From Torymus aiolomorphi (lineage: Eukaryota > Arthropoda > Insecta > Hymenoptera > Torymidae): a stretch of 64,000 bases of DNA. Positions 7,105 to 33,762 of the stretch are shown in pieces (position 1 is the stretch's first letter; each line of letters starts with the position of its first letter). The stretch spans positions 123,398,810 to 123,462,809 of the forward strand of contig CM070876.1 of NCBI GenBank assembly GCA_036365515.1, given 5' to 3'. The notes beneath the pieces were generated by a model. The model saw only the letters and a list, made by a program, of their open reading frames with translations, had not been told where the DNA came from and did no database searches. The position numbers and the translations under genes are program-made.

Positions 7105-7164
7105 GTATATACATATATATATATATATATATATATATATATATATATATATATATATATATAT
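7105..7164. repeat. (TA)n microsatellite left of element A
   Basis: Uninterrupted TA dinucleotides, preceded by acatatgtatatacata. The array stops exactly where element A starts. Confidence 0.95.
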
Positions 7165-7165
7165 G

Positions 7166-7516
7166 TGTTCACCGCTATGTTTCAGGACTTTTCATTGGTT
7201 TACCGCTATGTTTCAGGACATTTGCATGTTTCCAGGACTGTACTGAATTAGGAATATGTTTACCGCCACCTTTCAGGACATTTTTGTATTATTCAGGACA
7301 TTTAGGGTTTCTTTCACAACATTTGTTTCCGTAAAATTTTTCCGAAATCAACGTAAAATACTGCGGAACTGAACGGGGGCGCCGCAGGCGTCGTGGTGTT
7401 AGTCAACACCCTGAGGGATATTATTTCTTTAGTCACTTATATACTGTTTAAAGTTTTATACCTACTTCTATTGCAGAAAACCTGTAGGTGTCCTGGAAGG
7501 TAGCGGTGTACTAAGT
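7166..7516. mobile_element. Element A: short dispersed element, arm motif TTTCAGGACAT
   Basis: The left arm repeats TTTCAGGAC(AT) about five times between 7180 and 7300. The right arm carries the inverse form (gtgtcctggaaggtagcggtg), so the ends are inverted: caccgctatgtttcaggac opposes the reverse of caggacaccttccagg-like sequence. The core at about 7408-7432 reads gggatattatttctttagtc and is shared with elements B, D, E and F. It lies between two TA arrays, as Micron-type MITEs of plants do. No coding capacity. Confidence 0.6.
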
Positions 7517-7517
7517 T

Positions 7518-7634
7518 ATATATATATATATATATATATATATATATATATATATATATATATATATATATATATATATATATATATATATATATATATA
7601 TATATATATATATATATATATATAATATATAGTA
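7518..7634. repeat. (TA)n microsatellite right of element A
   Basis: More than 50 TA units starting immediately after the right arm of element A, ending in tataatatatagtatatata. The YIYIYI open frames across it are artefacts. Confidence 0.95.
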
Positions 7635-7639
7635 TATAT

Positions 7640-8290
7640 ATATATCAGTAATGATAAAATGAGGATCTGTTTCTTGGTGATGTTTGCTTTCCTTTTTTCC
7701 AGACGGGAAGCATTCCGAGGATATCCAATAACCTTCAGAAGACTGTCTGCAATTGATCCGCCCACTATATAACTAGATATTCATGTGTATGTATATAGGT
7801 ATACTGTGACACACATGCACTCTGCACCTCCAAGTGACAGGGTCCTATTGAAGAATTCGGTGGTGGACGAAGTGGATCAATAAGAGGGTTCTGTGCCTGA
7901 TAGGCCTCTGGGACCTTCTGGTAATGCTCTGATCTCTCCCTCACCCTTGACAGATGTAGATCCAAAGGACCCGCAGGGAGAAATGCACGATGCAGGGTGA
8001 TAATTGTTTGGATCTCGCCTCCTCAATGGAAAATAATAATTGCCATCTGCATTTCCCTATCCAGAGGGAGGACAAGGGACAGAAAATGTTAACTTGCGAA
8101 GAATTCGAAGAAGGAAGCTAAGGGTTGGATAAAATTTGGTAGAGTGTACGACACCTGTAGGATATTCCCCTCGCCTTCGCCCAACACTACTGGGTGTTCG
8201 TCCTCTGTCGTCGCTTCGCTCCTGTGAGTAGGGGTAAGTATCTTTACTTTGACCAACCACTCAACGTTTTATATTTAAAGGTCAAAAATC
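7640..8290 (-). other. Possible exon remnants, unrecognised
   Basis: Two minus-strand stretches look more protein-like than their surroundings. One (about 7765 down to 7660) reads [20 protein letters not shown] and then a basic segment, preceded by a possible ttatatag splice acceptor. The other (about 7965 to 7765) contains VRERSEHYQKVPEAYQAQNP. I do not recognise either, and no complete gene model can be built. Confidence 0.2.
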
Positions 8291-8938
8291 GAGAAAACCC
8301 TGTGGGGGTTGACCATCGATTATCGGTTACTATATGTAGATCCCCAAAATAAGCTAGACTCGTTTAGTTATCTCAAAAAACAATAATATTGACTTAATAA
8401 AAGCTTTAATGTGTTTAACCCCCTTTTTTATACAAATATTCAGATACTTTAGGAGAAAAAGGATGTTTTCTACATAAACAAATTGATAATATCATATAAT
8501 CTAATGATTTATTTTCTTTAAAGACACTTCAACCTCGTTCTTTTTCTTCAAATAAGACGCGTCTAGGTTGTTCTACGATCAGTACATTATTTTCCTATGT
8601 GAAAATCATACCGGACTGTATGGAACACGTGTCCTCATATAACATTCCGATACTTATTAATCACTTTATTTTAGGGGCCCTGACAGCTACGGTGAGAGGG
8701 GAATCCGACTCGACCTGCCTGCGACTCATGAAGTTCAGTGTTCGGTTGGAATCTAACTACTGTCAATTACACTATCGCCCAGTGAATCGAATAATTTTAG
8801 GAAACTAATTGATTTTTCTTCTATTATCTTTCCGTATTTTTATGAACATAAAAATTGTTAATTAGAAATTAACTTGTAAATGTGGTCGGTCGCATTCTAA
8901 TGATTGCTTGAATTTAAAGTTTATTTTTATTTATTAAA
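8291..8938. other. Unassigned stretch
   Basis: AT-rich with a modest open frame at 8599-8808 on the plus strand that has no recognisable domain. Nothing else is supported. Confidence 0.4.
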
Positions 8939-9356
8939 CCCCAGGCGAAAATGATCTTCTATAATAAAAGTTTATAAAGTTTATAACTGATATTGGCAGA
9001 TTATAAGGTCAGGATTTGAGACTTCTATAAAAGTTTAGAACTGTTATAAATAGTTATAAATAGTTATTTACTTTCATAAGTTTTTGGATCATCGTACAAA
9101 TTTCAATATTTGATCAGAAAAAAGGTAAATAACTCTTAATAGCTGTTGTAAATTTTTGATGATTGAAAATAATGATTTTGAAGTTCAAATTAATAATGAT
9201 TTAATATAATAATGATTTAAGAATGATTTTAAAGTTTAAGTTTATTCAACACAATTTAAAACTATTAATAACTATTGTTATTAAGTAAAAAGGTATATAT
9301 AAAAAATTATATTTTTGCTATTAATAATTATTTGGTAAGTCTTATTTCCGCCTGGG
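8939..9356. mobile_element. AT-rich MITE-like element with CCCAGGCG ends
   Basis: The left end reads CCCAGGCGAAAATGA and the reverse complement of the right end reads CCCAGGCGGAAATAA, giving an imperfect inverted terminus of about 15 bp. The interior is AT-rich with short repeats of gttataaatag. No coding and no clear TSD could be found, so superfamily is open. Confidence 0.5.
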
Positions 9357-10284
9357 ACGAAATGGGACGTATTGCGTTAAATTGCGGCTCTATTTGCATC
9401 TATTTTCAATCTGACATGCAAATGAAACCCGATATATAAGAAAAATCGTATACGCAAAGGGGAATATAAGATTCACTGAAAATTACTGCTTAATTCCGAA
9501 TTTCGCTTGCCACCTTGTTAATATGAATTTACAAAAATGTATGACGCACAGTCACTCCTCTCTGTGATGCATGCGCCCGGCCGATATACACGCAAATATA
9601 CATACATTCGAGCGAGATACTATGTATATGTATGTATGTTCTATCGTTAAGATCAAAAATCAAAGTACACTTACTTTTTACGTATTAATCGGAACTGGTT
9701 ATTATTCAAATGTATGAAATGTGGGTTTGTTGCAAAATATTAATCCTGGTTTTCCTTGATTCTTGATATAACGGCGCATCTAGTAAAATCCAATAATGTA
9801 TAATAGTAAGGGTGATCAAATTATGTGTTGCTCCAAGATGTAATGGTATCGTTCGCACTATCCTTGTCTCCCTTTTCCTCTTTCTTATTTATAACTCTTA
9901 AGGCACTCGCTTAACGCAACTTATTCGATCAGGCTCTCGATGCGGACTCCTCGGCAAGCCGCGTCGATGACGCCGTCGCGACGTCGACGGTCTGCCCCGC
10001 TCGACGCATTTTCTCTCTCGCACTCGTGGGTCCCATACCCTTGGCAACAGTGTTGCACCGACTAGGGGTTTCGGATTTCTCTCGCGGTAAGCTCCGAGAG
10101 GGCTGAGGATGCTGAGTAACACATTCCTGTCGTCGCGAGGAACCGATAACGTTCGTACTTTGTATGAATGTTGCGCTTAAAACTTATTAGGCTTGAAAAA
10201 TATTTGACGAATGAATCTGAGTAAAACTGGTGAAGTAAAAATGCAAATTGAAAAAAATCGAAAAAATGTGTCACTTACATACTG
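9357..10284. other. Unassigned stretch with a GC-rich patch
   Basis: A CG-rich island at about 9900-10130 has a basic, arginine-rich minus-strand frame with no recognised domain. The remainder is AT-rich and featureless. Confidence 0.4.
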
Positions 10285-32780: not shown

Positions 32781-32874
32781 AAAGAACGCATTCATTTATT
32801 TACCTCTTGTGTTATGTGGAAAAAATAGAACAAATGGGTTGTTATTTAAAATGGGGGTTGACGAGCTGAGCGAG

Positions 32875-32892
32875 TAGGGGATACACCCCTAG
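32875..32892 (+). other. Candidate Helitron 3' end hairpin
   Basis: The stem taggggatacacccctag (6-bp stem, loop ataca) ends in CTAG at 32889-32892 and is followed by T and TA-rich sequence. CTRR plus a nearby hairpin is the classic Helitron 3' end; here the hairpin overlaps the CTAG, so the call is tentative. Confidence 0.45.
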
Positions 32893-32934
32893 TATATATG
32901 TATATAAATATAATTATACATCTGGCATGCTTTG

Positions 32935-33137
32935 ACGGACTAGAAATATACGGAACGACTGTTTTGGCGAGTTTGTGACGCTTTTGACGAGCTCGCCAAA
33001 AGAGCAAAAATAGCGGAGACCACTTTTGGCGAGTTTTATTAATACCTCAGCCCCAGAAAGGGATATTATTTCTTTAGTAAAGCATACGAGTCCCTGATTG
33101 TTAAAACTCTAGCTCGCCAAAACGGTTCACCCACATA
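32935..33137. mobile_element. Element D: arm motif TTTTGGCGAG
   Basis: Motif copies: gttttggcgagtttg, cttttgacgagctcgccaaaa (both orientations) and acttttggcgagtttt; the right arm has agctcgccaaaacgg. Between them are ttaatacctc and the shared core gggatattatttctttagt. Aligns with element B position by position, except that every motif copy differs in the same way. Confidence 0.65.
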
Positions 33138-33242
33138 CTTATATATATATATATATATATATATATATATATATATATATATATATATATATATATATAT
33201 ATATATATATATATATATATATATATTTATATATATATATAT
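33138..33242. repeat. (TA)n microsatellite between elements D and E
   Basis: About 50 TA units with one ttta interruption, joining D directly to E. Confidence 0.95.
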
Positions 33243-33467
33243 GATATGTTTGTAAATTGGTACTTCTGAGGAGATGTGAACCTTTCGCTCAGAGTTCGGA
33301 CAATGTGACTAAAGAAATAATGACCCTCAGGTTACCGACTCTGGGAAGAGGGGGTATAGATTTCTCCTCAAAAGTCGCGATTCTTGCTTCAAAATGCCGA
33401 CATCTCTTCAAAAGTACCGATCTAGACGTTCATATCTCTTCAAATATACCAATTCCCATAGTTATGA
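33243..33467 (-). mobile_element. Element E: inverted orientation, arm motif TTTTGARGAGAT
   Basis: Read on the minus strand, the left arm contains tatttgaagagatatg, acttttgaagagatgtc and acttttgaggagaaat; then comes the core cctgagggtcattatttctt with tagtc, and the right arm catctcctcagaagtacc. It is the only copy in reverse orientation, and TA arrays abut it on both sides. Confidence 0.6.
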
Positions 33468-33532
33468 TATATATATATATATATATATATATATATATAT
33501 ATATATATATATATATATATATATATATATAG
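33468..33532. repeat. (TA)n microsatellite between elements E and F
   Basis: About 32 TA units, ending in tatagattta where element F begins. Confidence 0.95.
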
Positions 33533-33534
33533 AT

Positions 33535-33762
33535 TTATCAAATGCAGCTTTTGAGGATCTATGTCAGCACGGATTCGATACTTTGAGGATTTTTCGGACT
33601 TTTGAGGACATCCTCAAAATTCCTTCGGTATGAAACGGTACTTTTGAGGATTTATATTAATACCTTCAACGCAGAGAGGGAGTTATTTCTTTAGTCAAGA
33701 ATATACGAACTCTGGAGAAAAAAACTATAGATCCTCACAAGTACCGGTTTCCGAAATGTGTA
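33535..33762. mobile_element. Element F: near-identical copy of element B
   Basis: Matches B from tcaaatgcagcttttgagg to accggtttccgaaatg with about ten differences in 226 bp. Same motif (TTTTGAGGAT), same core and same inverse right arm. It is followed by tatatagttg and a minisatellite. Confidence 0.7.

Follow-up and report, generated by a model that had tools for sequence, protein, structure and literature searches.

Short iteron-bearing elements with a common core, one site layout and family-specific words in the genome of Torymus aiolomorphi

A 64,000-nucleotide stretch of the Torymus aiolomorphi genome (assembly GCA_036365515.1, contig CM070876.1, positions 123,398,810 to 123,462,809, forward strand; the window) contains six short elements, A to F. 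Each carries several copies of one short word (iterons) arranged around a common core; the arrangement is nearly constant and the word differs from family to family. We conclude that the six elements are probably short non-autonomous transposons resembling miniature inverted-repeat transposable elements (MITEs), that they form one supergroup, and that their iterons are read by family-specific transposases, possibly Mutator-like. The elements were first noticed in a reading of the window from its letters (the original prediction). The pattern that it described is real and striking; one key point, the alignment of B with D, was overstated.

All six elements were recovered where they had been predicted, and the core was found to be common or decayed as proposed: exact in A, with one mismatch in D and two in E, shortened in B and F, and decayed in C. 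Element A (7165-7516, plus strand, about 352 bp) lies between (TA)n tracts at 7114-7164 and 7517-7624. Its 11-mer iterons of the TTTCAGGACA type start at 7179, 7210, 7229 (a palindromic pair) and 7270, followed by a further iteron at 7291, the core (7415-7434) and an inverted iteron at 7489. Element B (10324-10556, plus) has a (TA)n tract at its left (10288-10323), TTTTGAGGAT-type 11-mers starting at 10337, 10369, 10388 (palindromic pair) and 10430, a shortened core at 10464-10485 and an inverted iteron at 10520-10529. Element C (17171-17500, plus) is related to A (85% over 253 bp), though decayed, and has no long TA tract; its 11-mers start at 17188, 17218, 17237 and 17278, and the right terminal iteron has been lost. 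The remaining three elements form a single array with TA tracts as the sole joints, although they belong to three families with different words. Element D (32916-33139, plus; core 33060-33079) carries 11-mers of the TTTTGGCGAG type at 32961, 32981 (palindromic pair) and 33023, an inverted iteron at 33113-33122, and a diverged slot 1 at 32929 that reads GCTTTGACGGA; the (TA)n tract at its right (33140-33226) joins it to E. Element E (33243-33467, minus; core 33307-33326, minus) has words of the form TTTGARGAGAT (at most one mismatch) at 33434, 33402 and 33362 and an opposite copy at 33265; its distance from the palindrome to slot 5 is 21 bp, or two helical turns, below that of B. A second (TA)n tract (33468-33531) leads to element F (33532-33766, plus), which is 97% identical to B and has 11-mers at 33548, 33580, 33599 (palindromic pair) and 33641, a shortened core at 33675-33696 and an inverted iteron at 33731.

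The arms had been described as one motif repeated forward on the left and inverted on the right. The right iteron is indeed inverted, but the arms are no simple mirror images: the left arm consists of two forward iterons, a palindromic forward and inverted pair and one forward iteron (one extra in A), and the right arm of one inverted iteron. Elements A, B, C, D and F were found by a layout detector that was blind to both core and word (threshold 29 of 36), and E was missed because half of its palindrome has been lost. The detector gave one additional match in the window, an AT-rich tandem stretch at 26294, and none in block shuffles (2 x 64 kb); since its spacing windows were fixed after the elements had been seen, these figures test chance and are no independent discovery. 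Another iteron-like element, of about 870 bp, was observed at 62578-63454, with 10-bp units TGTACATTTC and their inverse in both arms. Its segment at about 63105-63180 looks tRNA-like in its A-box and B-box forms; ARAGORN reports no tRNA.

The core is abundant in the 1.08-Gb assembly, which includes the window. With up to two mismatches, 4,401 + 4,359 matches (8,760) were counted, compared with 4 + 3 for a reversed-pattern control. We inspected 80 regions taken around listed exact core matches, together with eight earlier loci, all on contig C1. These contained 124 distinct core copies at up to three mismatches, many of them bounded by dinucleotide tracts. In the orientation of the core, the layout reads s1 forward, s2 forward, palindrome (forward and inverted), s5 forward, core, s6 inverted. 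It is common to eleven subfamilies, two of which each miss one site (s2 in G2, half of the palindrome in E); in subfamily M the core stands before s5. Distances between iteron starts were 30-33 bp from s1 to s2 and 19-20 bp from s2 to the palindrome, each in 12 of 12 measured cases, and 40-42 bp from the palindrome to s5 in 11 of 13. The exceptions are E (21 bp), shorter by about two turns, and M (52 bp), longer by about one. When run on 144.5 kb of core loci, the layout detector returned 65 matches, 61 with iteron-like words and four A+T-rich, while one shuffle gave none. A core lay within 260 bp of 60 of the 61 iteron-like matches, in loci that had themselves been picked by core; likewise, the core is sharply bounded in an alignment that was selected by core. 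An exact core search of viral_contigs gave no matches. One bacterial metagenome-assembled genome matched a degenerate core pattern and was rejected, as no arms stood beside the match. A search for the A-type word beyond this genome, in other sequence collections, gave no matches; a B-type 18-mer matched once in each of 10 viral contigs.

The iteron words were compared among eleven hand-picked subfamilies, namely A, B, D and E of the window and G1, G2, H, K, K2, M and N. The words are TTTCCGGGACG in G1, TTTCCGGGAC in G2, TTTATGGAGCC in K, TTTATNNNGCC in K2, CTTATGCAGAC in M and ATTTTGAGGAT in N; those of H are variable (TTTCCAGGAC, TTTCGGGGAC, TTTTGGGGAC and TTTTGAGGAC). Over 11 bp, different slots of one copy were identical at 0.827 of positions, while between copies the value was 0.506 for the same slot and 0.501 for other slots. 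Permutation of the words between copies within slots gave 0.531 +/- 0.014 (maximum 0.606), and the observed value was reached in 0 of 20,000 permutations. The same held for A, B, D and E of the window alone (0.792 versus 0.566; 0 of 20,000). In these statistics the halves of the palindrome are not independent, and sites are missing in E (one palindrome half) and in G2 (s2). By reasoning rather than by simulation, independent drift from identical iterons should leave the slots of a copy as different from one another as the same slot is between copies, which was not the case. The predicted difference of motif between copies thus stands, with the listed motifs as stated. The predicted uniformity within a copy lies well above chance; however, it is not complete, slot 1 of D being diverged, H and K2 variable, and C mixed, with CAGGAC beside CGGGATA and CGGGACA. 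The mean within-copy identity profile of the eleven subfamilies peaks at the word, and falls to background within 2-3 bases on the 3' side and more slowly on the 5' side. The first two T of the word are near constant between families, and most remaining positions differ. In K2 the middle three positions vary and the flanks are almost fixed. A profile peaked on the word is consistent with recognition by a protein.

Pairs of B/D-like words at the right distance were found at 1,192 places in the genome (control, 3), in a search that covered only the form TTTTG[AG][CG]GA[GT]. The first 100 of these places, mostly near-identical copies, were listed and sorted by eye: 80 were GAGGAT/GAGGAT, 13 GGCGAG/GGCGAG, one GAGGAG/GAGGAG and six unlike pairs. 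Two of the 13 GGCGAG/GGCGAG places look like unrelated tandem repeats. Mixtures of motifs within single elements had been named as the finding that would speak against the pattern. GAGGAT and GGCGAG were not combined at any of the 100 listed places; unlike pairs do occur, and four of the six lie in element-like sequence and are one base apart. In 11 of 11 elements (with J in place of E, and the word of A taken from other A copies), the palindrome word was also found to recur outside the palindrome, at 3-5 places of the element concerned; shuffles gave 0.33-1.05.

It had been claimed that B and D align throughout and that all motif copies of D have undergone one and the same change. The first claim holds for the interiors, but the left-arm spacers are not significantly alignable. 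The whole-length score of 44 (3.8 +/- 2.0 in shuffles) stems from the interior. The score was reached by none of 1,000 shuffles for the 20 nucleotides after s5, by none of 1,000 from s5 to the core and by none of 2,000 from the core to s6; beyond s6 it was reached by 818 of 2,000. In the left arm it was reached by 77 of 1,000 shuffles before s1, 43 between s1 and s2, 309 between s2 and the palindrome and 449 between the palindrome and s5, although at 8-21 nucleotides the spacers make these tests weak and of low power. As no significant alignment links the arms outside the iterons, homology does not show a concerted change in D. A second pair, A and N, shares a 60-bp interior at 92%, and its left-arm spacer scores were reached by 991, 73, 96 and 788 of 1,000 shuffles. 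Interiors and arms therefore look partly exchangeable.

These comparisons bear on the strongest rival explanation, in which the arms are old, separate lineages that diverged as deep subfamilies, interiors with the core were swapped among them by recombination between TA arrays, and the words never visibly changed in concert within a lineage. It is compatible with our explanation and differs from it only on how the words diverged; we consider it quite plausible, if somewhat short of probable. The B-D and A-N pairs speak for such exchange, as does the occurrence of the same word with different spacers (several GAGGAT forms; G1 and G2) and of elements of different families end to end. On the other hand, fixed spacing over unlike arms would still require a constraint. 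Among 36 left-arm spacer tests in nine pairs, five fell under 50 of 1,000 shuffles where two were expected, and faint homology of the left-arm spacers may remain. A and N are also weakly alignable from the core to s6 (8 of 2,000 shuffles; beyond s6, 1,575 of 2,000). B and E are alignable on either side of s6 (10 and 0 of 2,000), yet the s6 of E ends in G like the other full iterons of E. This region gives the sole hint here of a word changing in place.

Association with microsatellites was observed for the TA-type families. Among 71 copies from ten TA-type clusters, with element ends set by hand, a dinucleotide tract stood near the left end in 59, near the right end in 60 and at both ends in 53; random windows had such a tract in 1,032 of 5,000 cases when drawn from these loci and in 144 of 5,000 when drawn from the window. 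As in the SaTar elements of plants, microsatellites lie on both sides and elements of different families form un-nested arrays, and more end-to-end elements besides the D-TA-E-TA-F array were seen among the fetched loci. Two further core-bearing families avoid microsatellites (one tract at the left and none at the right of 25 copies). One of these two, the core-bearing CGGCGCGG family with ends CGGCGCGGCTATTTGTACGACAGAT, showed by eye exact 9-bp target duplications in seven of 12 copies, one with a mismatch in another and none evident in four. A duplication of 9 bp is a length suited to Mutator-like elements (MULEs), whose target duplications span 8-11 bp. At loci L040, L046, L049, L057, L062, L063, L078, L082, L084, L085, L094, L098 and L099 we also observed a core-bearing family outside microsatellites in which two cores stand inverted to each other at a spacing of about 55 bp; its ends are inverted (CACCCCCCTTCCAGCCGATGAAAATTGCC), and it contains GGAGCAGTTT words in repeated copies.

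The Mutator-like class is possibly the right one and serves here as the leading hypothesis, not as a result. The long terminal inverted repeats (TIRs, >100 bp) of MULEs were not seen; the arms are asymmetric and inverted similarity extends over about 19-51 bp at 70-92%. Long TIRs are not universal in MULEs, as two of 14 Aedes families have TIRs of <60 bp (PMC5225508). It is unlikely that the elements belong to another class, such as CACTA, hAT or the rolling-circle, Helentron-like elements. In favor of CACTA, its elements have subterminal repeats that are family-specific and that TNPA binds in Spm/En (PMC2613891), and family-specific subterminal motif repeats were found here also; in addition, no 9-bp duplication was convincing in TA-type copies. 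Against another class, CACTA/CACTG termini were not seen, the ends beside TA tracts reading AACATC, ACATCTGG or GTGTTCACC by eye, a core-bearing relative has 9-bp duplications, and arrays of small non-autonomous elements in TA microsatellites are known for the Mutator-like SaTar (PMC5907723). Nor were the long inverted ends of tandem motifs that mark Foldback elements present: there are five sites at the left (six in A) and one at the right, with starts 19-42 bp apart except in the palindromic pair.

The original prediction knew of no described family with such copy-specific motifs. This was too strong, since family-specific subterminal repeats have been reported in both CACTA elements and Aedes MULEs. 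In CACTA, short subterminal motifs differ between families of one species, and co-evolution with tnpA-like exons has been suggested; unlike the elements described here, CACTA elements end in CACTA and make a duplication of 3 bp (ATA in Tgmt*) (PMC2613891). In Aedes aegypti, subterminal repeats of 9-15 bp occur in ten of twelve long-TIR MULE families, and the Muta elements, which have target duplications of 8-9 bp, share with ours an insect host, subterminal repeats and many non-autonomous derivatives (PMC5225508). However, Muta1 has 12-bp repeats 3-4 bp apart in long TIRs (19-42 bp here) and inserts without apparent sequence preference, and Muta derivatives keep their ends and differ inside, whereas some interiors here are common to families with different words (PMC5225508). 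In guayule and rice, non-autonomous MULEs have been described as forming arrays in TA microsatellites (PMC5907723), and Medicago has a MULE family that targets TA (PMC4486113). These SaTar, Micron and MuTAnT elements are likewise small, non-autonomous and flanked by microsatellites, often TA, and SaTar forms un-nested multi-family arrays (PMC5907723, PMC4486113). They are plant elements, however, classed by TIRs and by similarity to autonomous MULEs, and the available portions of these papers describe no six-site layout or core. The Tm1 Mutator/Foldback elements of root-knot nematodes have composite ends with repeated 13-15 bp motifs; their tandem copy number is variable, and no fixed layout or core is described in the available portion of that source (PMC3169594). 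In the open-access titles and abstract openings that were listed, neither a six-site phased layout combined with a common core nor MITEs in TA arrays of an insect were reported. In the available text of a survey of arthropod MULEs (PMC13359780), a term search met 'microsatellite' once, in the title of a reference.

The uniformity of words within a copy had been attributed either to gene conversion among the iterons or to joint change of the iterons with a binding factor. The latter is the best reading; conversion within copies was unsupported, at low power. It would have the iterons of one copy homogenized by gene conversion or template switching, with no binding protein required. The equal likeness of same and other slots between copies (0.506 and 0.501), as if the history of slots had been lost, agrees with it, as does an excess of parallel changes in unfiltered copies: 19 parallel pairs against 3.3 expected in G1 and 8 against 1.1 in A (0 of 2,000 shuffles each). 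An earlier run, in which the slot borders were drawn differently, gave 10 pairs where 2.3 were expected in G1 and 15 where 5.4 were expected in A. The excess of the later run was traced to five copies (L032p469, L037p731, L053p741, L064m708 and L024p679), all >12% divergent and, by eye, with the left arm truncated or replaced. Among close copies (at most 12% divergent; 22 of G1 and 14 of A, the filter having dropped 7 of 29 and 3 of 17), there were 16 and 6 iteron changes and no parallel pairs, a count of low power. Conversion is thus improbable, as the excess of the later run comes from divergent copies and both the identity profile peaked at the word and the K2 word, with its variable middle and nearly fixed flanks, argue against it.

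The following mechanism is proposed for the family-specific transposases. The elements lie chiefly in dinucleotide microsatellites, TA tracts and others, where they pile up end to end. The iterons would be sites for a DNA-binding protein that autonomous relatives supply, most likely the transposase or its partner. A single multimeric complex of fixed geometry would read the whole array, with sites about 3, 2 and 4 helical turns apart and the palindrome seating a dimer, so that every site of a mobile copy would have to carry the word of its own transposase. Copies with a foreign word would not be mobilized and would leave no descendants, and families would therefore be uniform within and different between. 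The differences between families would come from a split into many families, each with its own transposase, together with new combinations of arm and interior; gene conversion inside a copy would be unnecessary. The core may be a site under a constraint of its own, perhaps bound by a factor that all families share. In a more speculative and rather doubtful form of this proposal, one geometry of the transposition complex and the constant core would serve as a chassis into which about eleven words have been swapped, letting families escape cross-mobilization or host repression.

Several observations weigh against the proposed explanation. In the TA-type families examined no convincing target duplication was seen, so the Mutator-like reading leans on one relative. 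The eleven subfamilies were picked by hand for a recognizable layout from 10 of 23 clusters (K and K2 coming from one cluster), 13 clusters were left out, including J, with slots off the fixed places, and word registers were chosen manually. H and K2, which vary inside the word, show partial uniformity, as does C. Palindrome words often fit other families equally well (the G1 word has three sites in G1 and four in A), and because related words match one another in this way, the recurrence of palindrome words is no test of exclusivity. Lastly, no autonomous partner was found among the MULE loci examined. Scans of 30 such loci of about 3.3 kb each, which took in TA tracts and the layout as well as the core, showed no core at up to four mismatches in 20. 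The most suggestive locus, L131, has a B-type left arm 2.1 kb upstream of an 817-amino-acid MULE frame and a core downstream, but the left end of its MULE lies about 1.2 kb nearer to the gene than the arm.

L131 was accordingly rejected as a partner. Two other copies of its MULE (L136-L139) match L131 only from about 4.38 kb inward, which places the B-type arm outside the MULE, and the downstream core is part of a separate A element. A MULE transposase profile search of the genome had given 150 scored matches, and one 817-amino-acid frame with ZSWIM RNaseH-like and MULE domains matched 70 genome stretches. Of 40 MULE-related pieces (L100-L139), just L131 and L135 contain the 16-base core exactly; weaker matches were seen in L116 (two mismatches) and in L105 and L107 (three). 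Layout scores of at least 29 were obtained for L131, L135 and, with an A+T-rich word, L130. L140, scanned for the core and one terminal word only, had neither. At none of the MULE loci examined was the six-site layout shown to form the ends of the MULE itself, and no MULE with TIRs similar to the elements was found among them. A match in L133 to a terminus of the family with 9-bp duplications (four mismatches in 20-21) had no inverted partner at the locus and was dropped. A flank at L074 matched MULE loci by BLAST, but the match does not reach the element and seems to be an old MULE fragment lying in the flank. The multi-copy MULE of L131 and L136-L139 has a marginal SWIM match, and in three copies it passes into CA/TA tracts at the 3' end. 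Related MULE frames in L132 and L133 terminate in a PHD finger.

Other mobile and repeated sequences were observed in the window, whose transposons are of an insect-like kind. An open mariner transposase frame of 357 amino acids (14544-15617) has a best match at 85% identity that is unnamed, and a Copia-type retrotransposon with long open frames lies at 36619-40562. Reverse-transcriptase and DDE fragments are also present. One fragment (55657-56205) has weak similarity to DDE_Tnp_4, below the curated cut-off, and resembles ISL2EU-type transposases. A short frame with a Pif1 2B domain (20387-20974) is possibly a Helitron remnant. Tandem arrays were found at 1564-3445 (92-bp repeat, with a switch of orientation at about 2863) and at 41034-43214 (120/240-bp unit, about 2.2 kb). 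A scan of the window for RNA families and tRNAs found none.

It is an open problem how a DNA-binding protein can change specificity in step with the many dispersed sites that it binds. The elements of T. aiolomorphi would offer about ten natural solutions to it on nearly one geometry, and with thousands of cores and many candidate transposases in the same genome the co-divergence of words and proteins would be directly testable. They would also extend to an insect the TA-microsatellite arrays that the papers cited here describe for Mutator-like elements of plants.

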